NCBI GenBank assembly: GCA_029212405.1
Contig: JARGNR010000026.1
Coordinates: 1-64,000, forward strand
Length of the DNA stretch: 64,000 nt
Reading direction: 5' to 3'
From: Saprospiraceae bacterium
GTDB taxonomy: Bacteria > Bacteroidota > Bacteroidia > Chitinophagales > Saprospiraceae
The notes under the pieces were generated by a model. It was not told the DNA's origin, ran no database searches, and saw only the letters and a list, made by a program, of their open reading frames with translations. Position 1 is the first letter of the stretch; every line of letters starts with the position of its first letter. This document shows positions 1-17,792 of this stretch, piece by piece. The position numbers were made by a program, and so were the translations under genes.

Positions 1-1587
1 CTCGCCTTCATGTGCGCCGCTGTAAATTGGGAAAAATTGAGCATCGTGGTCAAAGATGGAAGGATCCCACACATCTTGGGTATGGCACTGGGTACAATCC
101 GTTGAGAAATTGGCGGCTGAGTGATTCGGATCAGTAGTCGCGTTGAACTCCTCCAAGTGGCATCCGATGCAGTCATTCGGAGTATTGATATAATCACCAT
201 TGTGGCAGGCAGCACAATCATTGGAGATGATGGCATGTGCTCCTTCCAATACATAAAAATCGTCGTGGATGTCAAATGCAGCCGGCATCCAATCGGGTTC
301 TGTGGTGTGACAGTTGATACAGTCATTCGACAGATTTAAAGCAACGTGATTGGGATTGATGCTGCCTTCAAAATCTAGGGTGTGGCAGTCTACACAATTG
401 GTAGATGTACCTTCAAATCCCGCACTGTGACAGTCGATGCATTCCACACCGATATGGGATCCGGTCAGAGGGAAGTTGGTATTATCATGGTCAAAGGCCA
501 TGTCTGCATCTCCATTCGGATGGCACGCCAGACAGGCATTGTCTTCATAGATATAACCGGAAATGCCCTCATGTTCTTCGTCGGTTTCAGGATTGATATG
601 GCATCCAATACACTGGAACTCCTGGTAGTTATTGGCATTGGTGTGGCACTCGATACAGTCATTCCAAACGCCTTCATGTGCTCCACTGTAAATAGGGAAA
701 TGTTGCGCATCATGATTGTTGAATTCTGCAGGAGTCCATCCCGGTTGGGTAGTGTGGCACTCCGTACAATCTACACTGAAGTTCACTAATTCATGATCAG
801 GGGATGAAGTTGCTGTAAAATCATTTTGGTGGCAGGAAATACAATCAGGAGAGAGGTCACTAAAAGAATTTGTAGTGTGACATGTGGCGCAATCCTGAAT
901 GTCATGCCCCAGTGTTAATGGGAAAAATGAATGATCGACAACATCTGTATTCCATGAATCTCCTTCGGGGGAGTGGCAATCCAAACAATTCATTGAGAAA
1001 TTAGCGTCAATATGATTCGGACTTTCGGTCGTCTCAAAGTCCATTTGGTGACACGCATAACAATCGTTGCCGATTCTATCAAATCTCAAATTGGTTTCTG
1101 AGGTATGACAATCTACACAGGAAAGTACGGCATGCTGCCCGATAAGTGGAAATCCATTTTCTTCGTGGATTTCTAGGATGTCATCAACCAACCAATTATC
1201 AGGCGTATGACAACGGATACAATCATTTCCTACCGTCATAGAATGAACATCCAAGTGACAATCGATGCATGCTGAAGTAGTTTGATTGAAAACTAAGGTA
1301 GGGTGGCAATCCAGACAATTTACCGTTTCATGCATTCCCGTGAGTGGGAAGTTGGTATTAAAATGATTGAAACTTGTGTCTGGAACAACCGTCTCATTTC
1401 CAATAGAATCTATTTTGATAATAAATTTTTCTACTTGGAAATTCCATTGATCGTTTGGTATTTCCCAGCCTGATGTTGTATGACATGCAATACAATCCAT
1501 CTTCAATTCATCCCCATGAGGCGATTGAGCGAGTGATTCGAAAACTCCGAACACTACAATGGATATTATAAATGACAGTCTATACAT
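1..1587 (-). CDS. multiheme cytochrome c (at least 19 hemes), 3' end missing
   Basis: The minus-strand frame is open from ATG at 1587 to the window edge, giving 529 residues without a stop, so the C-terminus lies outside. The N-terminus is a signal peptide (MYRLSFIISIVVFGVFESLAQ), and the first CxxCH follows about 10 residues after it. I count 19 CxxCH heme-c motifs, for example CIACH, CLDCH, CIRCH, CYACH, CATCH and CINCH. They alternate with segments of the type FxHxxTNFPLxGxH that supply extra His ligands. This is the cytochrome c3/c7-like repeat architecture of periplasmic or surface electron carriers. The start codon overlaps the end of the preceding 23-heme gene by 22 bases, so the two are translationally coupled. 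The product is exported; its substrate or redox partner is not visible. The heme count is a direct count; the electron-conduit role is inferred from the operon. Confidence 0.9.
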   Translation of the reverse strand, partial: MYRLSFIISIVVFGVFESLAQSPHGDELKMDCIACHTTSGWEIPNDQWNFQVEKFIIKIDSIGNETVVPDTSFNHFNTNFPLTGMHETVNCLDCHPTLVFNQTTSACIDCHLDVHSMTVGNDCIRCHTPDNWLVDDILEIHEENGFPLIGQHAVLSCVDCHTSETNLRFDRIGNDCYACHQMDFETTESPNHIDANFSMNCLDCHSPEGDSWNTDVVDHSFFPLTLGHDIQDCATCHTTNSFSDLSPDCISCHQNDFTATSSPDHELVNFSVDCTECHTTQPGWTPAEFNNHDAQHFPIYSGAHEGVWNDCIECHTNANNYQEFQCIGCHINPETDEEHEGISGYIYEDNACLACHPNGDADMAFDHDNTNFPLTGSHIGVECIDCHSAGFEGTSTNCVDCHTLDFEGSINPNHVALNLSNDCINCHTTEPDWMPAAFDIHDDFYVLEGAHAIISNDCAACHNGDYINTPNDCIGCHLEEFNATTDPNHSAANFSTDCTQCHTQDVWDPSIFDHDAQFFPIYSGAHEGE

Positions 1588-3395
1588 TCATGTTTTTCTA
1601 TTTGATAAATAATAGTGGATTGACCATTTATCTGGGCAGAGGAAGTATGACACGCATTACAATCTGCTTCCAGGTGTTTTCCCTCCAGAGGAAAGTTTGT
1701 GTTGTTATGATTAAAATTAGTAGGAAACCAAGATGCTGTAACGTGACATCTTCTACAGTCTGTGATTTGTTCTATGGCAAATTGATCTCCATGTATATTC
1801 GCATGACATGAGATGCATTCGGATTCGAGATTTGAAAACTGTTGTTTGATCGTAGTTGAATTTTCTACAGATTCAAAATGGCAGGTTCGACATTCGATGT
1901 TGGAATGTTGCCCTGTCAGATCCCATTGCGTTGTACTGTGGTCAAAACTTATATCCCTCCAAGATTCGCTGGTGTGGCAAACCGTGCAATCTTGATTGGG
2001 ATAATAGATAGCGTTGATTTCATTTTCATGAATATCATCATGACAATCTACACAAGATTGACCTATGTTTCTAAATGACCAATGTTCTTCATCTACATGA
2101 CAAGCAAAACATGGAGTGGCCAGATGCGCACCTTCCAAAGGGAAGAATGATGCCTGATGTTCTGTTGGGCCAAAGGTCGTATAGGTAAATTTTTCATTTA
2201 CGGTATGACATGCTATACAATCGGGACTTTGCCCATCCTTCTTAAATTCTCCATGATGATAATCTTGGTGACAATTTTTACATTCATGGTGATCAATAGG
2301 AGCTGTAAATCGGTCTGTATGACACAATTTACAATCCACCAACACATGTTGGCCTATTAAGGGGAAATCGGTTATGCTGTGGTCAAACGAATTCATTTCT
2401 TTAAGGGCAAAAAAGCTCTCTTCTGAGTGGCATTGAATACAATCGGTTCCAAATTTACCTTCGTGGACATCTGCATGGCATTCTATACAATTGGTTTCCT
2501 GGATGGTGAGCTTGTCCTGGAAAATCGTGGTTGCATTTGCAGTGGAGGTGTGGCATTCAAAACATCCCACTTTTATGTGACTCCCTTTCAATTCAAATGA
2601 GGTCGTATTGTGATTGAATTTGGACTGACCTACAAAACGACTAAATGACTGCTCAGTATGACACTGGGTACACGCTCCTTCCAAATTGCCTTGATGTGCA
2701 TCGGAGTGACAATCCGTGCATGCAGCATGAGGTATATCGGTAAATCGCTGGAATTCCTGACCATTTTTCAGGGACTTCGGATGGCATTCGAGGCAACTTA
2801 CTTGTGCATGTGCTCCGTTCAATTGAAAATTTGCTGTTGTATGATTAAATTTTTGTGCTGGATCGAATTGGTCAAAGTTGTGGCATTGTAAACAATCATT
2901 TCCCAATGTGTTTTGGTGGTAATCCGAATGACAATCCAGGCACGCCGTTCCCATTCCCAGATAGGTATCTTTTCTTTGTTTGAGTTTTTGGTCCTGAATA
3001 TTATCCGGTTGGTGGCATGCTCTACAATCAATTACGGCATGTTGACCTTCTAAGGGATATCCTGCAAGTGTGTGGTTAAATGCTTCTTCATCCCATCGTA
3101 CCATGTCAAATTTTTCTCCATGGTGGTCGTTGTGGCAATCCACACATTCTTTCGTTTTAACTTCCTGTGAAACGTGAAAGCCTCTATTGGATTGAATGAG
3201 CTGATCAATTTCAATATGGCAGTTCAGGCATTTTTGATCGGGTACTTTGTTGCCGAGATCGTGACATTGGGTACAGTTGCTTATTCCTTCCAAATGAGAA
3301 TGAGGCAGAGACAGCTTTCCAGGTGAGATCTGACTCAACGCGAAAACGGCAGTTGTGCACATCAAAATAAGGCTATATGTCCATTTTTGTATCAC
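1566..3395 (-). CDS. 23-heme cytochrome c, exported
   Basis: This 609-residue protein has an N-terminal hydrophobic export signal (about residues 5-22) and 23 CxxCH motifs; the last (CIDCH) lies one residue before the stop. A repeating unit of roughly 90 residues contains FxHxxTxFxLxGxH, a CxxCH, and then a CxxCHxDxHxG-type pair. This is the cytochrome c3-family pattern, in which the additional His residues act as distal heme ligands. The start is GTG at 3395, directly after the TAA of the upstream flavoprotein gene. A GGAG about 7 bases before it supports this start, which is notable because Shine-Dalgarno sequences are usually weak in Bacteroidota. It sits third in a four-gene operon with membrane redox proteins, so it probably takes electrons from, or delivers them to, the heme-b protein. 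Periplasmic or cell-surface location is inferred; no lipobox or T9SS tail is seen. Confidence 0.92.
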   Translation of the reverse strand: MIQKWTYSLILMCTTAVFALSQISPGKLSLPHSHLEGISNCTQCHDLGNKVPDQKCLNCHIEIDQLIQSNRGFHVSQEVKTKECVDCHNDHHGEKFDMVRWDEEAFNHTLAGYPLEGQHAVIDCRACHQPDNIQDQKLKQRKDTYLGMGTACLDCHSDYHQNTLGNDCLQCHNFDQFDPAQKFNHTTANFQLNGAHAQVSCLECHPKSLKNGQEFQRFTDIPHAACTDCHSDAHQGNLEGACTQCHTEQSFSRFVGQSKFNHNTTSFELKGSHIKVGCFECHTSTANATTIFQDKLTIQETNCIECHADVHEGKFGTDCIQCHSEESFFALKEMNSFDHSITDFPLIGQHVLVDCKLCHTDRFTAPIDHHECKNCHQDYHHGEFKKDGQSPDCIACHTVNEKFTYTTFGPTEHQASFFPLEGAHLATPCFACHVDEEHWSFRNIGQSCVDCHDDIHENEINAIYYPNQDCTVCHTSESWRDISFDHSTTQWDLTGQHSNIECRTCHFESVENSTTIKQQFSNLESECISCHANIHGDQFAIEQITDCRRCHVTASWFPTNFNHNNTNFPLEGKHLEADCNACHTSSAQINGQSTIIYQIEKHECIDCHL

Positions 3396-4748
3396 TTATA
3401 CTCCATGTTTTTTCATGATGTAACCAAATCGTTTTTTGACTTCTATTCCCGCATTGGATAAAAAATTTGTAGGCAGTTCTCCTCCAGCAAAAATGTACAC
3501 CAGATCATTCTTCATTTTCCGTATTTGATCTTCCCCTTTTACATTTAAACGAATGGAATTATCCTGAATGGCCTCAAGGTTTGAATTATATATAATTGTA
3601 ATTTTATTGGCCTTTTCAGCCTCAATAATTTTCTCTTTATTTTTGGGTTTTAATCGGGCGAATACGTCTTTACGGTAGGAAAGAGTGACTTCATTTTCAT
3701 CCATTAAAAGCATGGCTGATTCAATGGCAGAATCTCCTCCACCTACCACCAGGATATGTTTATTTTGAATCAATTCAGGTTCTAATAATCGGTAAAATAC
3801 TTTTGGCAATTCCTCTCCTGAAACCCCTAATTTTCTTGGTGTTCCTCTTCTACCAATAGCAATAAGGACATGCTTGCAAATGAGAGCTTCTTTAGAAGAA
3901 GTCATTACTTTAAACGTACCATCCTCCAAAGGGATTATGTTGTCCACTTTGGTGTTTTCCCTAATGGTTATATCATTTTTAGAAAGCGCTTCATTCCAAA
4001 TTTGCAATAATTCATCTTTGGAGGTGTCGTAAAGATTGACTTTCCCATAAAGGGGAAGATCCATTGGATTTGTCATTACAATTTTGGCTCTGGGGAAGGA
4101 ATATACGGTACCACCGAGTGTATCCTGTTCTAAGACTTCAAATGAAAGTCCATGTTTTTTTGCGGTCAATGCACCCGATATTCCCGCAGGCCCCGCTCCG
4201 ATTATTACCAGGTCCAAAATTGAATTGTTCTTGTGCGTCAGTCCTTTAATTATGTTTTCAACGGCCTGTTTCCCTTGTTCGACACTATTCTTGATTAAGC
4301 CCATCCCTCCCAGTTCGCCAGCAATAAATATCCCTTTAATATTGGTTTCGAACGTCTGATTTACATGGGGCAATTCAACGCCTCTGGTTTCCGTACCTAT
4401 TCGTAAGGAAATGGCTTCGACCGGACAGGTATGAAAGCATGCACCATGTCCCACACAACTGGATGCATTAATAGCAGCCGCTTTCCCATCTACAATTCCC
4501 AATATATCTTTTTCTGGGCAAGCACTGATACAAGCGGCACTACCGATACAGGTATTGAGATCAATGTAGGGATGTAATGAAATTGGTTCAAAGCTTCCTT
4601 CTTCTTTTGCTAAAGCAATTTTAGCCGTTGTCGTTGCGGTTACCTTATTTTGCTTTCTTAAATAGAAAAATATAATAAGTCCACACAAGATGAAGACACT
4701 GCCATAAATTACTATTTGCTCTATCAATACTTCCATTAGAATATCCAT
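3396..4748 (-). CDS. membrane-anchored iron-sulfur flavoprotein (NAD(P)/FAD oxidoreductase)
   Basis: The 450-residue protein starts with one membrane helix (about 13-30). A ferredoxin-like part follows with two motifs, C67-x5-C73-x3-C77-P and C98-x5-C104-x3-C108-P. Both lack the second Cys of the usual CxxCxxC, with Ser70 and His101 in its place. A thioredoxin-reductase-like region comes next: the FAD-binding element GIFIAGELGG (139-148) precedes the first Rossmann motif GAGPAG (184-189), and a second nucleotide motif GGGDSA lies at 336-341. The order looks circularly permuted relative to thioredoxin reductase, where the GIFIAGE-type element is last. The likely reaction is NAD(P)H oxidation with transfer through FAD and Fe-S centres to a membrane partner. 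It overlaps the heme-b gene by 13 bases and abuts the 23-heme gene. The electron donor and direction are inferred. Confidence 0.85.
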   Translation of the reverse strand: MDILMEVLIEQIVIYGSVFILCGLIIFFYLRKQNKVTATTTAKIALAKEEGSFEPISLHPYIDLNTCIGSAACISACPEKDILGIVDGKAAAINASSCVGHGACFHTCPVEAISLRIGTETRGVELPHVNQTFETNIKGIFIAGELGGMGLIKNSVEQGKQAVENIIKGLTHKNNSILDLVIIGAGPAGISGALTAKKHGLSFEVLEQDTLGGTVYSFPRAKIVMTNPMDLPLYGKVNLYDTSKDELLQIWNEALSKNDITIRENTKVDNIIPLEDGTFKVMTSSKEALICKHVLIAIGRRGTPRKLGVSGEELPKVFYRLLEPELIQNKHILVVGGGDSAIESAMLLMDENEVTLSYRKDVFARLKPKNKEKIIEAEKANKITIIYNSNLEAIQDNSIRLNVKGEDQIRKMKNDLVYIFAGGELPTNFLSNAGIEVKKRFGYIMKKHGV

Positions 4749-5578
4749 TTATATCCAAGAGCAATAGTTACTCCTACGTGAATAAGTACAATGACGACCA
4801 TAATTATTGCAAACGGCATATGGACCACATGCCAGTACTTGAACAATTTTTGCATCTTTTCCAATCTGCCAATTTTGCTGGATAGTGCTATTTCTTCTGA
4901 AACCAATCTTAATATTTTGGTTGTTGTCCCTTTCGAAATATTTTTATTGCCTAAAAATTTCTTGATCTCCCTTGCTTTCTTGCGTTTTTCAAAGAGGGAC
5001 AATAATCCATTTGTTACCTGGGATTCGCTGGAGAAAATGGTTTCTACGATTGTTTGATCGATAGATTCTAAACGTAAAACTTGTTGTGTGATCTCCTGCC
5101 GTTTCTTTTGGATGTCTTGCATACTGAGTTCTTGGCCTTCAATACTTCTGGGAATTTGAATATAAATGAACCTTCCAATAATCCCACTTAACACTACTGC
5201 TACCATGCTCCAAAACGCAATAGATACAATCCCTCCAAACTTAAAAGTGGTATGAAATAGAATAAGAATTGGACCTAATGTGCATAGAAATATGTGAAAT
5301 TCTAATAGATATTTGAGTCGGATCCAATTTTTTAGAAATCCGTATCTTTTTCGCGCAATATAAATCGCGACTCCAAATGTAATCATTGCAGTTCCTATTA
5401 CACCGAGTCCTTGCCCCATAATTCCAGAGGGTTTGAACCAATCATAATTTTCATGATAGAATCGTTCTTCAATAGGAAGACTATAATAGGAATAACCACT
5501 AGCGGCCACATAGTATGTTATCGCAAGAACTGTGAGCGTCATAGTTCCGATATATATAGTATGTGCTTCTTTAGTCAT
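4736..5578 (-). CDS. membrane heme-b type electron-transfer protein
   Basis: This 280-residue integral membrane protein has helices at about 10-30, 55-75, 90-112, 116-140 and 252-275. A charged, helical cytoplasmic or periplasmic loop (about 145-248) separates the last helix from the rest. His95 and His109 lie in one helix and His253 and His267 in another, each pair 14 residues apart; His250 is a further candidate. Two His per helix at this spacing is the arrangement that binds two stacked b hemes in ferric-reductase- and NADPH-oxidase-type proteins. I do not recognise a named family with certainty. It is the first gene of the operon, upstream of the Fe-S flavoprotein and the two multiheme cytochromes, and would be the transmembrane step. 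Family-level assignment is moderate; membrane nature is clear. Confidence 0.75.
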   Translation of the reverse strand: MTKEAHTIYIGTMTLTVLAITYYVAASGYSYYSLPIEERFYHENYDWFKPSGIMGQGLGVIGTAMITFGVAIYIARKRYGFLKNWIRLKYLLEFHIFLCTLGPILILFHTTFKFGGIVSIAFWSMVAVVLSGIIGRFIYIQIPRSIEGQELSMQDIQKKRQEITQQVLRLESIDQTIVETIFSSESQVTNGLLSLFEKRKKAREIKKFLGNKNISKGTTTKILRLVSEEIALSSKIGRLEKMQKLFKYWHVVHMPFAIIMVVIVLIHVGVTIALGYKWIF

Positions 5579-6473: not shown

Positions 6474-7571
6474 CTAAAATGGATCACTATACGCAGGATC
6501 AGCAAGCATAGTTTGATCCGTCAAAGTTTTCAAGAAATTGAGTAAATCCACTTTGTCTTCATCGTTCAGAAACAATCCAGTTTCAGAAGTTGCCAATAGG
6601 GCAGGGTCGATGGTTGTGGATGGATGAATGCCTTCATTATAGTGGTCAATGACTTCTTCCAAGGTTGCAAACCTACCGTCATGCATGTACGGGGCGGTCA
6701 ACTCTATGTTTCGTAAAGAGGGAACCTTGAACTTGGCATTGTCTGAAGGATCCATGGTGACTTTTGCTCTACCCATATCCATGAAATTTTCATCAGAGTC
6801 CAAGCCATTATTCATATATTGATCATTCTCAAAATTTGCACCTCCATGACAGTGAGCACAGTCTGCACCGGAAAACTGTGGAAAAAAGGGATTGTATTCT
6901 GTCTCATAAAGCAACCGACCTCTCTCTTCACTTTCTGTTAATTCTACCAAACCGGCTTTCCATTGGTCAAATTTACTATCGTAAGACACAATTGAAAACA
7001 TAAATTGCTCCATCGCTTTTGCCATTTTATCCACCGTAATCTCATCATCCCCAAATGTCCTCGTGAATTGATCTCTATAGGTTTTGCTATCGGCTAATTT
7101 TGCAATGACATTATCCAAGGTTTCATCCATTTCCAATTCGTCTTGAATGGGTAAGATGGCTTGGTCACGCAATAAATGTGCTCTTCCATCCCAAAAGAAT
7201 TCATTGGTATTCCACGCCATATTGAAGACGGACATTGCTTGTCGTTTGCCTGGTAAACCTTGAACCCCTATGGAAAATTTAGTGGTATCCGAAAAAGCAT
7301 GTTCTTGTCTATGGCAACTTGCACAAGATTGAGAATTGTCGCTGGAAAGCATTTTTTCATAGAACAACATCCTTCCCAATTGTACTCCTTGAACTGTCAA
7401 CACATTGTCTTCTGGTAAATTGGGAGCAGGAAGTGCCCCATAGGCCAATTCATAAGGGGTGGTATCAATTTCGATTACCTCTTCCGGGGGTTCCATGGTA
7501 GGGTTATCACTGCAGGAGTAAATGAGGGCTATTGAAAAGAGAAACGCACAGATGTATATATATTTATTCAT
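6474..7571 (-). CDS. diheme cytochrome c peroxidase (MauG/MbnH-like), lipoprotein
   Basis: This is a 365-residue protein with a lipoprotein signal (LIYSC, Cys20) and two heme-c motifs, CASCH (Cys83/Cys86/His87) and CAHCH (Cys238/Cys241/His242). The C-terminal block with VPSLRNIELTAPYMHDG is typical of the bacterial diheme peroxidase superfamily (CcpA, MauG, MbnH). Length fits the family. Members either reduce H2O2 or use a bis-Fe(IV) state to modify a partner protein. The neighbour two genes upstream is MbnP-like, whose known partner MbnH belongs to this superfamily, so protein modification is more likely than simple peroxide removal. It overlaps the preceding paralogue by 8 bases. Which of the two paralogues does which job cannot be told from sequence. 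Confidence 0.88.
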   Translation of the reverse strand: MNKYIYICAFLFSIALIYSCSDNPTMEPPEEVIEIDTTPYELAYGALPAPNLPEDNVLTVQGVQLGRMLFYEKMLSSDNSQSCASCHRQEHAFSDTTKFSIGVQGLPGKRQAMSVFNMAWNTNEFFWDGRAHLLRDQAILPIQDELEMDETLDNVIAKLADSKTYRDQFTRTFGDDEITVDKMAKAMEQFMFSIVSYDSKFDQWKAGLVELTESEERGRLLYETEYNPFFPQFSGADCAHCHGGANFENDQYMNNGLDSDENFMDMGRAKVTMDPSDNAKFKVPSLRNIELTAPYMHDGRFATLEEVIDHYNEGIHPSTTIDPALLATSETGLFLNDEDKVDLLNFLKTLTDQTMLADPAYSDPF

Positions 7572-8586
7572 TACTAAAATTCTTGTTAGTTATAAAGTTT
7601 TGATCCGTCAGTGAGTGCAAAAATGCAAGGAGGTCGTCCTTTTCTTGCGAACTCAATTCTAAAGGGCGAACGAGAGCACTTTGGTTAAAATGTGAATGCC
7701 CTCCGCTATCATAATGTTCGATTACTTCAACTAGGGTTTGAAAAGAACCATCGTGCATATAAGGTGCAGTCAATTCTATATTCCGTAATGAGGGCACTTT
7801 AAACAAGGCGATATCTTCTTCTTTTTGTGTCAATCTTGCCCTTCCTTCATCTGGATATTCCGCATACAATCCATTATTCTGAAATGTGTAATTGGTAAAA
7901 TTAAAGTCGGCGTGGCAGGAGGAACAAGAGGTCCGATCACTTTCAAAAAGGACTTTTCCTCTTTTGGCGGAAGCACTCATGGAACCGGTTATTTGATAGT
8001 TGTATTCCATATCGTACAGGCTTTGACCGCTGATGAGACTACGTTCAAATTGAGCTAAGGCACGGGTGATCACAAATGAATTGGGTTCCTGGTCATAAGC
8101 ATCCAGAGACAGGGTGATATATTCCTCTATTTTTGATAGCGTATCGGCAATCAATACAATATTATTGTTGAATTCATTGTGTTCTTGAATGGGGACCAAT
8201 ACCTGCATTTCCAAGGTAGGAACTCCACCTTCTCTTGTGAAATAAGGATGAAAAGCAACGTTAGCCAACGTAGGTGAGTTTCGACTTCCTTCCAATTCAT
8301 CTGAACCAAAGCTCACTTTTTTATCGTCAGAAAATGCCAATTTGGGATCGTGACAAGATGCGCAACTGATTTGGCCGTCTTTGGATAAAATAGGGTCGAA
8401 AAACAATTTCTTTCCAAGTGTCCATCTTTTTGGGGTATATTCATTACCCGTAGGATGTTCTACCGAGGGGAACCCTGGTGGAGATTCCATCAACATCAAA
8501 TTATCTACTTCAATACTATCCACTTCTTTTGAACAAGAAAGAATGCAAATGGAAAGTAAAATGATATACCAATTTCTATAGGTCAA
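7564..8586 (-). CDS. diheme cytochrome c peroxidase (MauG/MbnH-like), second copy, lipoprotein
   Basis: The 340-residue product has lipobox ILSC (Cys18) and two heme-c motifs, CASCH (Cys75/Cys78/His79) and CSSCH (Cys221/Cys224/His225). The C-terminal signature VPSLRNIELTAPYMHDG is nearly identical to that of the downstream paralogue, so the two arose by tandem duplication. It begins 3 bases after the MbnP-like gene on the minus strand and overlaps the next peroxidase gene by 8 bases, which gives a tight three-gene transcription unit. By analogy with MbnH it may oxidise a Trp of MbnP to kynurenine to build a copper site. Anchoring by lipid at the inner or outer membrane is inferred from the lipobox. 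Confidence 0.88.
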   Translation of the reverse strand: MTYRNWYIILLSICILSCSKEVDSIEVDNLMLMESPPGFPSVEHPTGNEYTPKRWTLGKKLFFDPILSKDGQISCASCHDPKLAFSDDKKVSFGSDELEGSRNSPTLANVAFHPYFTREGGVPTLEMQVLVPIQEHNEFNNNIVLIADTLSKIEEYITLSLDAYDQEPNSFVITRALAQFERSLISGQSLYDMEYNYQITGSMSASAKRGKVLFESDRTSCSSCHADFNFTNYTFQNNGLYAEYPDEGRARLTQKEEDIALFKVPSLRNIELTAPYMHDGSFQTLVEVIEHYDSGGHSHFNQSALVRPLELSSQEKDDLLAFLHSLTDQNFITNKNFSNE

Positions 8587-8589
8587 TTC

Positions 8590-9540
8590 TTATTGTATCA
8601 ATAGTTTGCGAGTCGCAAGAATGTCTCCATTTTTATCAAGTAGGGAAACAAAGTAGATGCCTGATTGTGTGATGTTGATCGTACCTTGTGCAGTCAATGA
8701 AGCGTCTATTTTTCTACCCAATACATCAGAAACCGATACTTTGAAATCTGTAATTTCTACATCTGTTCGTACACTAATTTGTCCTTGAGAAGGATTAGGA
8801 TATACGATAAACGTGTTCACCAAATCACTGTCTGTCGTACTAGATACTTGCTTGGATGTAAATACGTTATCTTTCAGATTATTAGCCAAAGTCTTGATGT
8901 GACCCAAATTTCCATGAAGTATTAAGCCACCACTGATATCGATATCGGCGAGTAATTCAGTGTATTCAGCATCAATTTCTACCACATATGAATCCGATCC
9001 ACTCATTTCTGCAGGAAAACTTAATTCTTCGTAAAACTCATCTCCTATACAGTGAAATTGTAGTTCTTGATCTACACTTTCCCCACTTTGTCCTTCCAAG
9101 GCAATAAAACGATATCCAGATGCCCAACCCCAGTGCATAGAAGGAAATTTAGGTGCAAGGGGATGGTCGCTTGGCCATAAAGACGGATCTGCATGATTTG
9201 CCTCTTCGTCAATACCGAAATAAAATTGAACGCTCTCTAAATTTTGAATATCAAATGTACCCAGATCAATTTCTGTCGGAGCTTTTTTATCATCCATAGT
9301 GATTAGGACATATAAATCTTCAATTGGAGTCACTTGTCCTCCATCATGTGTAATGGAAAAAGTAGATAGGTAATATTCCAAACGCTCCAACATAAATTTG
9401 TTTTCGAGGTTGTTTTTCGAAACCATACCCAGTTCAAATTCTGCCTCTTCCAGGAGATGATTGATTTTTAGCGTTACATTACTCTGCGACGTCATTGAAA
9501 ATGCACAAAAAAGAAGTAAAATGGGTAGAATTGTTTTCAT
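8590..9540 (-). CDS. MbnP-like copper-binding protein with T9SS sorting domain
   Basis: The 316-residue protein has a signal peptide (1-20), an MbnP-like domain (about 21-215) and a T9SS type A C-terminal sorting domain (from about 243, TFIVYPNPSQG, to the end). The MbnP hallmarks are the N-terminal strand NVTLKIN, the ITxDD-like central strands, and MHWGWASGYRF at 135-145 with Trp137 and Trp139. In studied MbnP proteins one Trp is converted to kynurenine by MbnH, creating a Cu(I) site. Two MbnH-like genes follow directly. The T9SS tail implies export through the outer membrane and surface attachment or release, unlike a plain periplasmic MbnP. Which Trp is modified is not visible. Confidence 0.85.
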   Translation of the reverse strand: MKTILPILLLFCAFSMTSQSNVTLKINHLLEEAEFELGMVSKNNLENKFMLERLEYYLSTFSITHDGGQVTPIEDLYVLITMDDKKAPTEIDLGTFDIQNLESVQFYFGIDEEANHADPSLWPSDHPLAPKFPSMHWGWASGYRFIALEGQSGESVDQELQFHCIGDEFYEELSFPAEMSGSDSYVVEIDAEYTELLADIDISGGLILHGNLGHIKTLANNLKDNVFTSKQVSSTTDSDLVNTFIVYPNPSQGQISVRTDVEITDFKVSVSDVLGRKIDASLTAQGTINITQSGIYFVSLLDKNGDILATRKLLIQ

Positions 9541-11131: not shown

Positions 11132-12907
11132 TTAATTGAGTTCTAGTTTGATGAAACCACATTTCATCATTTTATCACCGAAGTAAGGATTTTGAATTTC
11201 TTTTTCTCTAGATATCCAATCTGCTCCTTCATTATTCTCTGCCATCGGACAATGTTGAATGAAGTATGTTTTCTCGCTAGTACCAAAGGCTTTAATGGTT
11301 TGTATCATTTCATCCGAAAGAAAGTTGAATTGCCTTCGCTGATCTTCAATGGAATTTCCATTTTTAATTTTAATGGAATGAGATCGCAGGGACTTTTCTT
11401 TCGAAAGCCAATAGTTGGAAACCTCTTGACTGACCGCCGACATGTCGATCTGGTCGAGCGATTCTTCAAAGAGGGCTGCTTCCCTACTTGCATTATCCTG
11501 ATTGGTAGCAACCAAAGCATCTTTTAAGGTTAGGTACTTTGAAATAATACCATCCAGTTTTAACTTTAGCTCATCGGGGATAGAGTCTGTGAAGTTTGGA
11601 ATACTTTCAATGAGCGCATCTTCTTTAATTTGAACTTGCCTGTTCATCATGCTCAATTTATTGCTGAGTTGAGCCGAAGCATCAACGGCAAAAGCACCAT
11701 GAACTACAATGTTATCTCCAATGGAAAGACCGCGTTCAATGGTTGAAAATTCCTTTCCACGATCGCTCACTTCCACTTCATTAAATTGAAAGGTGGGTAC
11801 ATCTACATCAGGAAGTTGAGTATACACAACCGATCTTTCTCCTGTCCATAAGATAGCTGTATTGGGAATCGTTATTTTTTGGGATGAATTCGAAGCGCTT
11901 TGTCGTTCTATATGGCCTCTCAACACCATCCCAGGTTTGAGGAAGTTATTTCTATTGTTGATTTCTGCTCGAACGGAGACTGTTCTAGTTTTTTCGTTGA
12001 GTGTTGGATTAATGTAAGAAATCACAGCCGTCATTGTTTTATACGGTGAAGAGGAGGTCGAAAATGTTATTTTACTTCCCACATGTACTGAGCTAATGTC
12101 GGATTCAAAAATTTGAAAAACGAGCCATACTGTTGCAGTGGTTCCGACGGTATACATAACATCTCCCTGAGTGAGGTAGTCTCCCTGGGCAACCATTTTA
12201 CGTAAAACATATCCACTTTGGTCTGCAAAAATATCAAGTGTAGTTATTGGTTTTTCAGTACGTAATATTTCATTTATCAGGTCCTCTGATATCTTCCAAT
12301 TTCGAAGTTTTTGCATGGACGCCTCTAAAATTCCATTCATACTATTTTTATATTTTGATGCAGTGATGAGTTCTTGACTTGCCGCTAATACGTCAACGGA
12401 ATACAACTGAGCAATTTTTTGCCCTTTTTTCACATATTGCCCTTCGAAAGTGATATTCATTGTCTCTATTCGTCCTGCCAAATGTGCGGTTTGGGATTGG
12501 ATAGTCCTTTCATCTAATTCTACCGTTCCATCTGCATAAATATCGGATTTGGTGACTCGAGTCGAGCTGTTGTCTTCAATCAAATATGTCTCAATTTGAG
12601 CTAGTTTGGAGGCCTCTTTGCTCATCTTTAAGATGGAAGGGTCCTCATTTGGTGTGCTGTTATCTAAAGGGATCAAATCCATCTCGCAAATTGGACAGAT
12701 CCCTGATTCATTTTGTCGAACCTGAGGATGCATGGAGCAGGTCCATATTTCATTACTTTGGTTCTGTTCTTCTGTCGTACTATGTACATGGTTTTTGTTC
12801 ACCTCAGGATTCAATTGTAGGGATGACTTTCCCAGCCATCCTATGGCCAACCCCATTAAGAAAACACTACCCACAATGATGTATTTATTGTATTTCTTCA
12901 TCTTCAA
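11132..12907 (-). CDS. CusB-like RND efflux periplasmic adaptor with metal-binding and DUF3347 domains
   Basis: The 591-residue adaptor has an N-terminal membrane anchor (about 9-26) and a heavy-metal-binding segment (55-80) with WTCSMHPQ and CPICEMDL. The HlyD/CusB-type hairpin, lipoyl and beta-barrel core spans about 100-420. A C-terminal DUF3347-like region (about 455-590) contains YFIQHCPMA and a Met/Cys-containing end. In CusCBA systems this protein passes Cu(I)/Ag(I) to the RND pump and links it to the outer-membrane channel. It starts 1 base after the RND-TolC fusion gene ends. The extra Met- and Cys-containing domains point to copper or silver rather than Co/Zn/Cd. Confidence in the role is high; substrate is inferred. 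Confidence 0.9.
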   Translation of the reverse strand: MKMKKYNKYIIVGSVFLMGLAIGWLGKSSLQLNPEVNKNHVHSTTEEQNQSNEIWTCSMHPQVRQNESGICPICEMDLIPLDNSTPNEDPSILKMSKEASKLAQIETYLIEDNSSTRVTKSDIYADGTVELDERTIQSQTAHLAGRIETMNITFEGQYVKKGQKIAQLYSVDVLAASQELITASKYKNSMNGILEASMQKLRNWKISEDLINEILRTEKPITTLDIFADQSGYVLRKMVAQGDYLTQGDVMYTVGTTATVWLVFQIFESDISSVHVGSKITFSTSSSPYKTMTAVISYINPTLNEKTRTVSVRAEINNRNNFLKPGMVLRGHIERQSASNSSQKITIPNTAILWTGERSVVYTQLPDVDVPTFQFNEVEVSDRGKEFSTIERGLSIGDNIVVHGAFAVDASAQLSNKLSMMNRQVQIKEDALIESIPNFTDSIPDELKLKLDGIISKYLTLKDALVATNQDNASREAALFEESLDQIDMSAVSQEVSNYWLSKEKSLRSHSIKIKNGNSIEDQRRQFNFLSDEMIQTIKAFGTSEKTYFIQHCPMAENNEGADWISREKEIQNPYFGDKMMKCGFIKLELN

Positions 12908-12908
12908 T

Positions 12909-15900
12909 TTATCTATATTTTTGTAAAATGGACCATGCCATATTTTTATCTCTCTCAGCTTTTATACGCTCCTGATTGTAATTTATTAATTCCATTTCAA
13001 GCCGAAGTAACTCATCAAACCGTGTTCCTTCTGAAGCATATTCTGTACGCATGAGGGTTAAGGTCTCCTTGGTAATGTCTTCAAGCACTACAAATTTTTG
13101 TAGAAGTTGCTCAGCATATTCCAGTTGCGACATTGCCATATTAATTTCAGCTAAAAATAGTTCTGTTGTTTCTTCTCGATAGGCATCAATAGCTTCCTGC
13201 CGAATGGTTTCTTCTTGACGCTTTGCTTCAAATCTGCTTTTGTGAATAGGAATGGATAGGGTACCCATCGGCATCAATACGTCTCTTCCATTTTGGTCAA
13301 TGGTAATATCATCCCGTGCTTCGATATAAGCATAAGAGAGGCCTACACCTATTTGCGGCTTTGATTCATAGTTGATATATTCTTTTCTTGCCTGCGAAGC
13401 CAATTTCTGTTTGGATAAAATGGATTGCTTTGGATGATTTTCCTGCGCATATTTCACGAGTTCATCTTTTAAAAAGGGTTTGTTTTCTGGAGTAATGATG
13501 TTAATGGGAGCAGTCAAATCGCTTCCTGTCCATCGATTGATTCTAATCGTCGGTTGTTCTTTTTTCTTCTCAATTAAACGTTGATCGATTAATAATTCCT
13601 CTCTTTTCCGTTGAATCAAAAGCACATCACTTAACTTTCCTTTGCCAGATCTGACTGCGGAGGTTGCGATGTCCTCCAATGCATCCAATACATTTAATTT
13701 TTCAGTAATGACCTTACTTTGTTCCTGAAGGTAGGTCAGCATGACATAATTGGTACGAATGGCATATTCAATTTCAATTTCTTGTAATTCATCCATTTCT
13801 GCTTTTACCTCCGCTTGGGCATGTAAAGATTTTTGTTTTGCCTCTAACTTTCCTTTCCAGGGAATCTTTTGGGAAATACCAATATTTAACAGCTGTGCAC
13901 CCAATCTAGTCTCAATGGGTAGTACCCCAATCCCAAGATTAATGATGGGGTCCGGCCAATCTTTTGCCTGGTTTTCTTTCTGGAGGTCAGCTTTGTATTC
14001 AAGTTGAAGTGCTTTAAGTCCAGGGTTGTATGTTCTGGCTTTTTCGATCAATTCGTCTAGAGATTGTGCTTGTATTCCTACACTTAGGATCATAATAAAC
14101 GAGAACAGGAAGGTATTTCTATTCATTTTATTCCATTTTTTATCCACTATTAATTTTCCTTCTTTCCACATTGAAAAGAGAATGGGTACAGTAAACATGG
14201 TGACAACTTGAAGCGCCATGCCACCAAAAGAAGGTATGGCCATTGGGATCATTATATCTGACCCTCTTCCTGTGCTAGTGAGTACAGGCAACAGAGCAAG
14301 TAAGGTGGTTGCTGTAGTCATCATGGCTGGACGTACTCTACGCAAACCACCTTGTACAACGGCATCTCTGATTTCTGGAATGGTTGTGGGATTATTTTTC
14401 TTAAAACTATCTTTTAAAAAAGTAGCGACCAAAACTCCATCGTCCGTTGCAATGCCAAAAAGCGCTAAAAATCCTACCCAGACCGCTACACTAAGATTGA
14501 TGCCTTGAATGTGAAATAGATCTCTCCCATTAATTCCCATTAGGGCGAAATCCAAAAACCAATCGGTATTATATAATCCAATCATTATAAATCCTCCAGC
14601 AAACGCAACAAAAACACCTAAAAAGACCATTAGAGCAATGACAACAGATCGAAATTGTAAGTAGAGAATGATAAAAATCAGCGCCAAGGCTACTGGAATC
14701 ACTAATGCAAGTCGTTTGTTGGCTCTCAATTGTTGTTCATAATTTCCAGAAAAATGATAATTTATTCCCTTTGTAATTTCTAATTCTCCTACATCAATCT
14801 GGTCCTGAATATACTTTTTAGCATTAAGGACCACATCGACTTCAGCAAATTCTTCTTGCTTGTCAAAAAGTACATACCCAACCAGAAATCCATCCTCACT
14901 TTTGATGGATTGCGGACCTTGCTCATACTTAATATCTACCACTTCACTTAGAGGAATGGGCCCATGAATTGGAGTGTCGATGTAGATATGTTGGATGTTA
15001 AAAATATCACTTCGCGCGTCTAATGGGTATCGAATCCGAATCGCATATCGTTCTCGACCTTCCACAGTAGTACTCATCGTCATGCCTCCTATAATACTTT
15101 GAATTTGATTTTGAATGGAAGCCATAGTAAGTCCGTAGGTCGATAGTGCTTCTCTATTGATATCCAATAATAAATACGGTTTTCCGACAATTTTTTCTGC
15201 AAAAACTGTGGAGGATTTGACCCCATCTACCCTTTTTAAATGGTTCTCTAGCTCTCTTCCGATCCGTTCAATTTCTTTAAGATTTTGACCTTTTACTTTA
15301 ATGCCCATCGGCGCTCGCATTCCAGTTTGTAGCATGATCAATCGTGTCTCAATAGGCTGTAATTTAGGTGCTGAAGTTACTCCAGGTAGTTTTGTAACTT
15401 GGATAATTTCATTCCAAATGTCATCTGGAGAATGTATGTGATCCCTCCATTGGCGATAATATTTACCATTGGGGTCTGGGATAAGATTTCCATTCTTATC
15501 TTTTTGAAATTCCCCTTTTTCGTATTTGAATCTTTTCCTATGTCCTTTTTCATCGACCCGATATTCTGACTTGTAATTGATGATGTTTTCGTACATGGAC
15601 AATGGAGCGGGATCCAGTGGACTATCCACACGACCTGCTTTCCCAAGAACTGATTCTACCTCGGGAATTGCGGTAACAGCCATATCCAGCAATCTTAAAT
15701 TTTTAATATTTTCAGCGATTCCGGAATGAGGCATAGAGGTCGGCATCAATAAAAAAGACCCCTCATCTAATGCAGGCATGAATTCTTGTCCGGTCCTCTG
15801 AAATATATAAAATCCAGAATAGATGAGCACTCCAATAATCAATAGAAAGAGGAGCTTTACTTTTAATAGAAACCGAAGGATGGCTTCATAAAATCGAATA

Positions 15901-17792
15901 ATCAACCAGAAAAAGGACAGTAATGCGGCAATGAGTAAAACAACAAAAAATGTATTGGTGAACAAGGAGTTGTTGACTCCCAAGGGCATCCATTCGTGGC
16001 TGAGAAAGATAGAAATTAGTAGGGCGTATATAAAAATAGTGCTTCTTCGGAATAGTTTACTTCCTTTTGAAAAATAAAGATCAATGAGGCTTTGGAGCAG
16101 TAAAAAACCACTGATTATAGTTACGATCAGAATGAATGAGTGATGAATAAATAAGTAAAAAAGGATGGAAGCAACAAAGGCAAGGCCACTTAGAGAAAGC
16201 GATAGCTTTTTGCGATCCACTTTAATTTGTAACATGGAATGGGCCAAGGGGGGAATGAAGGCCAAAGCAACCAAAACGGCTGCAATCAATGCAAATGTTT
16301 TGGTATACGCAAGAGGCCTAAATAGTTTGCCTTCTGCGGCCTCCATGGCAAATACGGGTAAAAAGCTGATTACCGTAGTCGCCACAGCCGTTAATACGGC
16401 AGATCCTACCTCCATGGTGGCTTCATAGACCGTAGTGAACAAAGATTCATCCGGAGAAGCTTTTCGATTTCGATCTATGATACTTTCAGTCAGCACAATG
16501 CCCATGTCTACCATGGTGCCGATTGCAATTGCGATGCCTGACAAAGCGACAATATTTGCATCCACACCAAAGTACTTCATAGCAATAAAACACATCATGA
16601 CGGCAATCGGAAGAGATCCTGCAACCAATAGGGAAGATTGAAGGTGAAACAAGAGTAGGATAACCACAATAATGGTGATCAATATTTCTAGTGTAAGTGC
16701 TTCTTCTAATGTACCAATGGTTTCGTTGATGAGTTGTGTCCGATCATAAAAAGGCACTATGGTAACTTGTGATTTTGTTCCGTCCGCTAGGATTTTCGAA
16801 GGTAGGCCAGGACCTATTTCATTTATTTTTTTCTTTACATTGTTGATCACTTCAAGAGGGTTTGCACCATACCTTGCCACGACAACCCCACCAACAGCTT
16901 CTGCGCCCGATTTATCTAAAATGCCTCTCCTTGATGCTGGCCCAAGATATACGGTTGCAATATCTCCAATGACAATTGGGGTGCCATCCACCTGATTAAT
17001 GACGCTAGAAGAAATATCATCAATAGACATCACGTACCCTAATCCACGTACGAAATATTCTGCTTTATTGATTTCTATCGTTTGAGCACCTATATCAAGA
17101 TTGCTCTCTTTTAATGCCTTCATCACCTGTGACAAGGTGATATTTTTCGCTTTCATCTTCAGCGGATCAATGTCCACTCGATACTCTTTAACATAGCCAC
17201 CAATGGAAGCCACTTCTGCCACACCTTCTGAGGCAAGTAATCCATATTTCACATAAAAGTCTTGAATAGATCTCAACTCTTCAGGGTTCCATTCGCCAGT
17301 TGGATTATTATTCTCATCTCTTCCTTCTAAGGTATACCAATAGATTTGGCCCAAGGCTGTGGCATCTGGACCTAGAGATGGAGATACTCCTTCTGGAAGT
17401 AAATTTGAAGGAAGGGCATTGAGCTTTTCCAAGATTCTACTCCTACTCCAATAAAACTCTACGTCTTCTTCAAAAATGAGGTAAATACTAGAAAACCCAA
17501 ACATACTATTACTTCGTACACTCTTTACGCCAGGAATTCCCAATAAAGAAGAAGTGAGTGGGAAGGTGATTTGATCTTCAACATTTTGTGGGGACCTCCC
17601 TTCCCATGAAGTAAACACAATTTGTTGGTTTTCTCCAATATCTGGAATGGCATCAATCGAGACTGAATTTCGAGGAAGCCAGTCAATGCCCAGATTAAAT
17701 GGGGCCACAATAGCACCCCAGCTCAATATGAAAATGAGACAAAGCCACGTAAGCAGCTTATTCTTTAGGAAAAATGTAACAAAGCTTTTCAA
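12909..17792 (-). CDS. CusA/CzcA-family heavy-metal RND pump fused to TolC-type outer-membrane factor
   Basis: This 1627-residue protein contains two units. Residues 1-1218 are a heavy-metal-efflux RND pump: TM4 motif GTMVDMGIVLTE with Asp429, ATDDGVLVATFL near 1115, porter-domain sequence MLQTGMRAPMGIK (820-832) with Met residues expected in Cu/Ag pumps, and extra hydrophobic helices at about 530-665. Residues 1244-1627 are a TolC-like outer-membrane factor. Between them lies a signal-peptide-like stretch (MNRNTFLFSFIMILSVGIQA, 1223-1242). An in-frame ATG at 14126 could serve as a separate start for TolC. RND-TolC fusions are known in Bacteroidota. Export of the TolC part would need the internal hydrophobic segment, possibly followed by cleavage. 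Upstream is the HYC_CC_PP gene; CusB follows after 1 base. Confidence 0.92.
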   Translation of the reverse strand: MKSFVTFFLKNKLLTWLCLIFILSWGAIVAPFNLGIDWLPRNSVSIDAIPDIGENQQIVFTSWEGRSPQNVEDQITFPLTSSLLGIPGVKSVRSNSMFGFSSIYLIFEEDVEFYWSRSRILEKLNALPSNLLPEGVSPSLGPDATALGQIYWYTLEGRDENNNPTGEWNPEELRSIQDFYVKYGLLASEGVAEVASIGGYVKEYRVDIDPLKMKAKNITLSQVMKALKESNLDIGAQTIEINKAEYFVRGLGYVMSIDDISSSVINQVDGTPIVIGDIATVYLGPASRRGILDKSGAEAVGGVVVARYGANPLEVINNVKKKINEIGPGLPSKILADGTKSQVTIVPFYDRTQLINETIGTLEEALTLEILITIIVVILLLFHLQSSLLVAGSLPIAVMMCFIAMKYFGVDANIVALSGIAIAIGTMVDMGIVLTESIIDRNRKASPDESLFTTVYEATMEVGSAVLTAVATTVISFLPVFAMEAAEGKLFRPLAYTKTFALIAAVLVALAFIPPLAHSMLQIKVDRKKLSLSLSGLAFVASILFYLFIHHSFILIVTIISGFLLLQSLIDLYFSKGSKLFRRSTIFIYALLISIFLSHEWMPLGVNNSLFTNTFFVVLLIAALLSFFWLIIRFYEAILRFLLKVKLLFLLIIGVLIYSGFYIFQRTGQEFMPALDEGSFLLMPTSMPHSGIAENIKNLRLLDMAVTAIPEVESVLGKAGRVDSPLDPAPLSMYENIINYKSEYRVDEKGHRKRFKYEKGEFQKDKNGNLIPDPNGKYYRQWRDHIHSPDDIWNEIIQVTKLPGVTSAPKLQPIETRLIMLQTGMRAPMGIKVKGQNLKEIERIGRELENHLKRVDGVKSSTVFAEKIVGKPYLLLDINREALSTYGLTMASIQNQIQSIIGGMTMSTTVEGRERYAIRIRYPLDARSDIFNIQHIYIDTPIHGPIPLSEVVDIKYEQGPQSIKSEDGFLVGYVLFDKQEEFAEVDVVLNAKKYIQDQIDVGELEITKGINYHFSGNYEQQLRANKRLALVIPVALALIFIILYLQFRSVVIALMVFLGVFVAFAGGFIMIGLYNTDWFLDFALMGINGRDLFHIQGINLSVAVWVGFLALFGIATDDGVLVATFLKDSFKKNNPTTIPEIRDAVVQGGLRRVRPAMMTTATTLLALLPVLTSTGRGSDIMIPMAIPSFGGMALQVVTMFTVPILFSMWKEGKLIVDKKWNKMNRNTFLFSFIMILSVGIQAQSLDELIEKARTYNPGLKALQLEYKADLQKENQAKDWPDPIINLGIGVLPIETRLGAQLLNIGISQKIPWKGKLEAKQKSLHAQAEVKAEMDELQEIEIEYAIRTNYVMLTYLQEQSKVITEKLNVLDALEDIATSAVRSGKGKLSDVLLIQRKREELLIDQRLIEKKKEQPTIRINRWTGSDLTAPINIITPENKPFLKDELVKYAQENHPKQSILSKQKLASQARKEYINYESKPQIGVGLSYAYIEARDDITIDQNGRDVLMPMGTLSIPIHKSRFEAKRQEETIRQEAIDAYREETTELFLAEINMAMSQLEYAEQLLQKFVVLEDITKETLTLMRTEYASEGTRFDELLRLEMELINYNQERIKAERDKNMAWSILQKYR

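Follow-up and report, generated by a model that had tools for sequence, protein, structure and literature searches.

A conserved Bacteroidota gene set predicted to form a flavoprotein-linked porin-cytochrome conduit with very long heme chains

The window analysed here is a stretch of 64,000 nucleotides of DNA from a Saprospiraceae bacterium, and it represents the start of contig C139 (G000:C139:1) in a 6.8 Mb assembly of 222 contigs. At its left end it carries four minus-strand open reading frames (ORFs), overlapping or abutting, which encode a membrane protein (MEMB), an iron-sulfur (Fe-S) flavoprotein (FLAV) and two multiheme c-type cytochromes (CYTA and CYTB). We find that in many Bacteroidota these genes belong to a conserved set, together with a gene for a predicted outer-membrane β-barrel, and that this set probably carries electrons across both membranes along a very long heme chain. 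Judging from the sequences, we regard it as reasonably probable that the operon encodes an NAD(P)H-linked trans-envelope porin-cytochrome conduit, in which electrons would flow outward via FLAV, MEMB, CYTA and finally CYTB with the barrel. What the analysis shows is the gene content, order and conservation of the set, its heme and histidine motifs, the fold prediction for the barrel and the modularity of CYTB.

A preliminary description of this DNA had read it as four co-oriented, overlapping or abutting genes for a membrane protein with two spaced histidine pairs, an anchored Fe-S flavoprotein, a 23-heme cytochrome and a second cytochrome with at least 19 hemes, and each of these points was borne out. 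All four ORFs were recovered on the minus strand, CXXCH counts gave 23 and 19, H-x13-H was found twice in MEMB, and in FLAV a hydrophobic stretch at the N-terminus is followed by two Fer4 motifs and a Pyr_redox domain. Hydrophobic stretches, helices and signal-peptide-like N-termini were recognized by eye throughout this work. In shuffled proteins of the same composition (2000 shuffles each), CXXCH occurred on average 0.32 times for CYTA and 0.21 times for CYTB, and at most three times, and a motif scan of both cytochromes revealed no CXXC pattern besides CXXCH.

Conservation and arrangement of the gene set

When GTDB species genomes were scanned with a FLAV alignment, at least 549 relatives were obtained, the best 80 of which were kept; these 80 represent the closest group and not all relatives of FLAV. 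The titles of their records include Saprospiraceae, Flavobacteriaceae, Aequorivita, Ulvibacter, Yeosuana, Arenibacter, Hanstruepera, Luteirhabdus, Bacteroidales, Maribellus, Lacihabitans and Ignavibacteriales. Among those of the 80 loci with enough sequence, MEMB lies upstream of FLAV in 77 of 77, CYTA follows FLAV within 4.5 kb in 66 of 66, and CYTB (counted as distinct ORFs) is present in 61 of 62, the exception being locus L109, while 18 loci were not assessable. The barrel gene was found in all 43 loci with at least 1.5 kb of sequence after a closed CYTB; the other 37 were not assessable, and the count leaves out L113, where CYTB runs to the end of the stretch, and L109, which lacks both CYTB and the barrel. 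In 22 of 37 loci the barrel gene is followed by one for a lipoprotein-like protein, and a CcsBA-like cytochrome c maturation gene (assigned to its family by Pfam in one member) lies near the operon in 20 of the 80. The gene set, sought across Bacteroidota, thus recurs, and nearly all loci that could be assessed have the homologues side by side, L109 and L045 being the exceptions.

Searches of genome samples, in each of which the window genome was included, detected MEMB in 21 of 119 relatives, in 5 of 345 genomes of the class and in 37 of 345 genomes of the phylum, four of these 37 being weak or partial matches. The barrel profile matched three of the 345 class genomes, all three with MEMB; the two class genomes with MEMB and no barrel match are that of the window and G295, whose contig ends in CYTA. 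A further set of 28 regions was read, drawn from 27 of the 37 phylum genomes with a MEMB match. The order MEMB-FLAV-CYTA-CYTB-barrel was found in ten of them, often with a small gene for a tetratricopeptide repeat (TPR) protein after MEMB, and a second arrangement, MEMB-CYTA-CYTB-barrel-FLAV, in 14 (in one of these, L168, MEMB is known from the genome search and not from the gene map). The remaining four comprise one incomplete region, one different cluster, and two regions without MEMB and FLAV at the threshold used. The five genes therefore stay together even when FLAV moves to the end.

In L155, L157-L159, L162, L167, L171, L173, L175 and L177, MEMB is followed by a protein of some 200-250 aa whose N-terminus is hydrophobic; the one scanned, from L155, is a TPR protein weakly similar to the TPR domain of CcmH/CycH (26.9 bits, cut-off 42), and perhaps serves cytochrome maturation. 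Among the 20 regions read first, L048 was found to encode only a distant MEMB-like protein and a 10-heme protein. Another relative within the phylum, L178, has a cluster comprising a divergent MEMB (25% identity), a 10-heme protein, a FLAV-like protein with FHA domains apparent by eye, a kinase and a phosphatase.

The set is also carried by a plasmid. A tblastn search of plasmids with MEMB returned 22 records, the best of which contains a complete, unbroken operon on pEMTOL02 of Emticicia oligotrophica, in the order CcsA, MEMB, FLAV, 23-heme CYTA, 40-heme CYTB, barrel and lipoprotein-like gene. A tblastn search of plasmids with the barrel found none outside Emticicia.

Table 1. Genes of the operon at the left end of the window and the overlap of the two cytochrome genes
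Feature	Position	Strand	Description
MEMB	4736..5578	-	280 aa, predicted inner-membrane di-heme cytochrome b-like protein
FLAV	3396..4748	-	450 aa, anchored Fe-S flavoprotein; overlaps MEMB by 13 bp
CYTA	1566..3395	-	609 aa, 23-heme c-type cytochrome; GTG start; abuts FLAV
CYTA end/CYTB start	1566..1587	-	22-bp overlap; possible translational coupling
CYTB, 5' part only	1..1587	-	at least 19 c hemes in 529 aa; open at the window edge

Sequence features of the five proteins

MEMB exhibits five hydrophobic stretches, with the histidine pairs H95/H109 on the third and H253/H267 on the fifth, the latter reading W249-x3-H253-x13-H267, and SGxxG at residues 131-135 on the fourth. H95, H109, H250, H253 and H267 are invariant in 16 aligned proteins. 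Of 89 distinct MEMB proteins submitted to a motif scan, 88 have the C-terminal W-x3-H-x13-H, 84 have HX13H in the region of helix 3 and 85 have SGXXG. This layout of histidines suits two b hemes bound between helices 3 and 5, and the positive-inside rule would place the long loop 143-245 in the cytoplasm. No Pfam family reaches its cut-off with MEMB; the DUF4405 family (PF14358) gives 21.6 bits, below its gathering cut-off of 26.7, so that MEMB is not counted as a member. Purified DUF4405 and FezC proteins are reported to show heme b spectra (PMC11334425).

FLAV comprises a hydrophobic N-terminus, two Fer4 motifs and a FAD- and NAD(P)-binding domain similar to YpdA and thioredoxin reductase. 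This nucleotide-disulphide oxidoreductase domain lacks CXXC by inspection, and its closest family is YpdA. FLAV is distinguished from both bacillithiol-disulfide reductases of the YpdA type and thioredoxin reductases by the additional Fer4 region and by scores far under the cut-offs of the NCBIfam equivalogs (155.9 bits for YpdA, cut-off 339.9; 86.9 for thioredoxin reductase, cut-off 343.45). In the window protein the second cysteine is replaced in both Fe-S motifs, by Ser70 in C-x2-S-x2-C-x3-CP and by His101 in C-x2-H-x2-C-x3-CP. Among 116 distinct FLAV proteins the position in the first motif is occupied by Ser in 78, Thr in 22, Cys in 14 and Gly or Ala in two, and it tracks the gene order: Ser or Thr is found in ten of ten regions with FLAV between MEMB and CYTA, and Cys in 13 of the 14 regions with FLAV last. 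In the second motif the position is His in all 116, which suggests a cluster of the 3Cys-1His or 3Fe type. GGGDSA is present in 111 of the 116 proteins, and we count this in favour of the proposed conduit.

CYTA, with its signal-peptide-like N-terminus, is predicted to be periplasmic, and no lipobox-like pattern was found in any of the 80 orthologs scanned. Its heme number is nearly fixed (23 in 48 and 20 in 29 of 80 complete orthologs). Its score against nanowire_3heme is 19.8 bits, below the threshold of 40.

CYTB is built of triheme modules, and its length differs between species in steps of three hemes. Of 63 complete distinct proteins, 60 have 3n+1 CXXCH motifs (the exceptions have 21, 21 and 42), and in the phylum sample the rule holds for 27 of 29. 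The probability of 60 in 63 at an expectation of one third would be 3e-25, related proteins not being independent. The heme number ranges from 13 to 94, plus 10 in the divergent L048 protein. Spacings between hemes repeat with medians of 34, 15 and 25 residues, and the proteins of the spacing analysis have about 25-29 aa per heme. In 38 CYTB proteins with at least six modules, the outermost two modules at each end are 0.51-0.59 identical across proteins versus 0.42 in the middle, and long proteins, when their modules are labelled, mostly show fixed caps enclosing repeated blocks of 3 or 4-3-3. Module pairs within one protein are up to 100% identical, hence the expansion seems recent in places. 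The visible modules of the window CYTB are labelled 1-2-3-4-3-3, like the start of a long member. A profile of the 13-heme CYTB alignment matches one solved sequence, that of a sixteen-heme cytochrome, over 54 positions. Tandem triheme modules are shared with the c7-type triheme (nanowire_3heme) cytochromes of Geobacter, but the similarity is weak, and the triheme-repeat proteins of Geobacter have about 12 hemes, whereas CYTB has up to 94. The 3n+1 ladder could serve as a natural length series for studying how conduction depends on the length of the wire.

The barrel protein has no Pfam match in the three members scanned. An AlphaFold model of the L036 protein, built with 11 aligned sequences (mean pLDDT 77, pTM 0.61), comprises 22 strands within residues 143-535 and a small N-terminal β domain. 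Structural matches of the model are outer-membrane receptors, porins and ushers, the best VIA-align match being an outer-membrane receptor (Z 19.6, rmsd 4.5, 332 residues); they show that the modelled protein is a barrel and do not establish its function. MtrB and OmbB are not among the 50 structural matches listed in either search, which does not exclude families outside those lists.

Relation to known porin-cytochrome systems

Most components of the set have a counterpart in PCC3, a porin-cytochrome c complex predicted by He et al. (2017) in Alpha-, Beta- and Gammaproteobacteria, which comprises a barrel, a repeat-rich cytochrome with a median of 34 and up to 85 hemes, and a second large cytochrome with a median of 21 (PMC5566968). 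The membrane protein of PCC3 and PCC4 is described there as having five helices, the third and fifth bearing WX3HX13H and the fourth SGXXG, and a length of about 300 aa in PCC3; MEMB carries most of this signature, namely HX13H on two helices with SGXXG between them. PCC3 and our set are thus alike in the barrel, the two large cytochromes (here mostly 20 or 23 hemes in CYTA and 10-94 in CYTB), the membrane protein and the low number of residues per heme (median 26 in PCC3). On the other hand, no flavoprotein is described for PCC3 in the published text available, and as many as 42 transmembrane regions are predicted for its porins, versus 22 strands here. FLAV is a constant member of our set, and therefore we call the cluster PCC3-like and not PCC3, a likeness drawn from published descriptions. 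PCC4 shares the five-helix HX13H/SGXXG protein, the porin and large periplasmic cytochromes, and one of its subgroups has an adjoining Fe-S gene, but it has three periplasmic cytochromes and no extracellular one, and the available text mentions no flavoprotein of the FLAV type (PMC5566968).

Conduits of the MtrCAB/MtoAB and OmbB-OmaB-OmcB types also combine multiheme cytochromes with an outer-membrane porin. The barrel of our set has no Pfam match in three members, and its listed structural matches are general outer-membrane barrels. MtrCAB/MtoAB and OmbB-type conduits take electrons from quinol via proteins of the CymA, CbcL or ImcH type, and not from a flavoprotein of the operon. In Burkholderiales, a porin comes after two large cytochromes, which have 24 and 49 hemes in the case of one genome, and the heme number varies among close relatives; that porin is, however, OmbB-like, and no flavoprotein is mentioned in the part of PMC7399161 available.

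As objects, the giant cytochromes were known before. Very many heme sites have been reported for Saprospiraceae proteins, as heme counts in secreted proteomes (PMC11495043); these proteins are probably of the same kind as long CYTB, but the available text gives no operon, porin, flavoprotein or module rule. A different cluster of Bacteroidetes comprises six cytochromes and a barrel (PMC8258643), and a survey of such neighbourhoods in about 60,000 genomes (PMC11475568) may list clusters like ours in its supplement. In the open full-text literature (subscription papers, preprints and supplements being outside its scope) we came across no account of the 3n+1 rule, of the barrel family or of a five-gene Bacteroidota operon in which a flavoprotein is constant. 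The earlier statement that no characterised Bacteroidota system with this gene order is known needs qualifying, as PCC3 of Proteobacteria has the same parts except for the flavoprotein (PMC5566968).

Proposed route, donor and direction of electron flow

In the conduit that we favour, FLAV would oxidise NAD(P)H on the cytoplasmic side and split the electron pair through FAD and two Fe-S clusters, and single electrons would cross the inner membrane via two stacked b hemes of MEMB. CYTA, with its 20 or 23 hemes, would span the periplasm, and CYTB, with fixed end modules and an expandable triheme middle, would pair with the 22-strand outer-membrane barrel and deliver electrons to or beyond the cell surface. 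We infer the cofactor loading, the topology, the NAD(P)H donor, the outward direction, the position of CYTB at or through the barrel, and the extracellular acceptor. The preliminary description had proposed a route from cytoplasmic NAD(P)H to a large heme array; its architecture is now strongly supported, while the donor remains inferential, backed by the nucleotide-binding fold of FLAV and by the reductases found beside distant homologs of MEMB.

Apart from pEMTOL02, we read eight plasmid records with such distant homologs (20-25% identity). Seven of them, from Bradyrhizobium, Methylophaga, Alteromonas, Pontibacter, Qipengyuania, Variovorax and Acetobacter (L182-L187 and L189), contain a triad in which the MEMB homolog lies between a gene for a 2Fe-2S or FAD-binding oxidoreductase and another small gene; the latter carries a cytochrome annotation in six of the seven and has 7 CXXCH in each of five that were counted. 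In Bradyrhizobium the oxidoreductase gene is short and adjoins a transposase, and the eighth record, from Roseomonas, has reductase genes and no annotated cytochrome there. The two triad reductases scanned both consist of FAD_binding_6, NAD_binding_1 and Fer2 domains, unrelated to FLAV. The presence of two unrelated kinds of NAD(P)H-type reductases beside one family of membrane proteins is our best evidence for a pyridine-nucleotide donor. The triads may be small electron export units; they resemble porin-less clusters comprising a periplasmic multiheme cytochrome, a five-helix HX13H protein and another redox protein (PMC5566968). Like our set, these clusters combine a redox protein with a di-heme b relay and a c-type cytochrome, but they have no porin and no giant cytochrome. 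With regard to a possible link with copper handling, genes for copper resistance or heavy metals occur close to several of the distant plasmid-borne MEMB homologs, and the window has MbnH/MbnP-like genes upstream of the operon.

The same evidence bears on a quinol-linked conduit, in which MEMB would oxidise menaquinol like other di-heme b proteins and FLAV would be regulatory or an alternative entry. Di-heme cytochromes b frequently have a quinone site, and the membrane protein of PCC3, in a cluster without a flavoprotein, is drawn as quinone-linked, albeit hypothetically (PMC5566968), a point that also counts against a direct NAD(P)H route. However, FLAV is found with MEMB, CYTA, CYTB and the barrel in either arrangement, and a comparable position next to the distant MEMB homologs is taken by unrelated NAD(P)H-type reductases; we consider a quinol link unlikely. 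For the outward, NAD(P)H-linked conduit, the constant presence of FLAV suggests a source of electrons for membrane proteins of the HX13H type, which had not been settled for PCC3.

The direction could also be the reverse. Fe(II), Mn(II), reduced humics or another cell would then act as extracellular donor, and the electrons would pass through CYTB and CYTA to MEMB and FLAV and feed the quinone pool or the reduction of NAD(P)+. PCC3 has been proposed to work inward, possibly taking up electrons in iron oxidisers (PMC5566968, PMC12442390). Cytochrome wires are able to conduct both ways. Nonetheless, a dedicated NAD(P)H-type flavoprotein with a b-heme relay fits downhill flow outward, inward flow to NAD(P)+ opposes the membrane and redox potentials unless the donor is very reducing, and many of the hosts are organoheterotrophs, all of which makes an uptake conduit, in our opinion, rather improbable.

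Several observations weigh against the outward conduit. Heme-copper oxidases are encoded in the window genome, and therefore the conduit is probably an additional electron outlet; most named isolates are aerobic heterotrophs, a poor fit with anaerobic mineral respiration. The atypical Fe-S motifs of FLAV make the type and potential of its clusters uncertain, and the helix 3 Trp of the published motif is found in only 49 of the 84 MEMB proteins with that motif, being Leu in 31 and in the window protein. An AlphaFold model of CYTB from 13 aligned 13-heme homologs has a pLDDT of 42, and we draw from it no inference about a heme chain. The sequence read at L109 and L045 contains CYTA but no CYTB and no barrel, and in L083 and L077 (the latter on the same contig as L035) a short CYTB precedes CYTA. 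Finally, a profile search did not find the barrel gene in the window's own assembly, the same profile matching 3 of the 345 class genomes. The expectation that a porin would follow the cytochrome thus holds for all 43 assessable loci of relatives and was left without support in the window genome itself.

As the window edge is the start of the contig, CYTB is cut there by the assembly, and a protein search of the same assembly for its missing part returned only the window's own contig. In G377 CYTB is found at the ends of two contigs, in one of them with the barrel behind it; for this reason we take the missing part of CYTB and the missing barrel as a gap of assembly or binning, unproven for the window. 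CYTB genes may themselves explain broken assemblies, since the window contig and a G377 contig both end inside CYTB.

An extension of the outward conduit would make it a phylum-wide, quinone-independent outlet of Bacteroidota, aerobes included, in which FLAV oxidises NAD(P)H directly and electrons leave along a CYTB sized by tandem triheme duplication (3n+1). We put this forward tentatively, as possible but doubtful. If true, such an outlet would be redox-balancing or dissipative, rather than a classical mineral respiration. The conduit would give Bacteroidota a common and recognisable system of extracellular electron transfer that has marker genes, a barrel family of its own and hosts in culture such as Emticicia oligotrophica, Aequorivita antarctica and Ulvibacter antarcticus.

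The heme array might instead store electrons as a capacitor, or supply reductant to periplasmic peroxidases and metal reductases, with another role for the barrel. A capacitor-like role has been suggested for the many-heme Saprospiraceae proteins (PMC11495043), and two genes for di-heme CCP/MauG-like proteins lie just upstream of the operon in the window. Yet the barrel is present wherever it could be judged, and no ORF with two CXXCH was seen among the displayed neighbours in relatives (one display covering at most three upstream genes, with no search for the family), so that the MauG-like genes look non-constant; storage or periplasmic supply seems to us very improbable.

These two genes and one for an MbnP-domain protein with a T9SS sorting tail occupy positions 6474-9540, directly upstream of the operon; one of the two CCP/MauG-like proteins is similar to MbnH, below the cut-off of that family. 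Further on, a reading frame of 1627 aa (12909-17792) fuses an AcrB-type RND pump with an outer-membrane efflux protein (OEP), and the next gene (11132-12907) encodes what looks, by eye, like the metal-efflux adaptor of this fusion.

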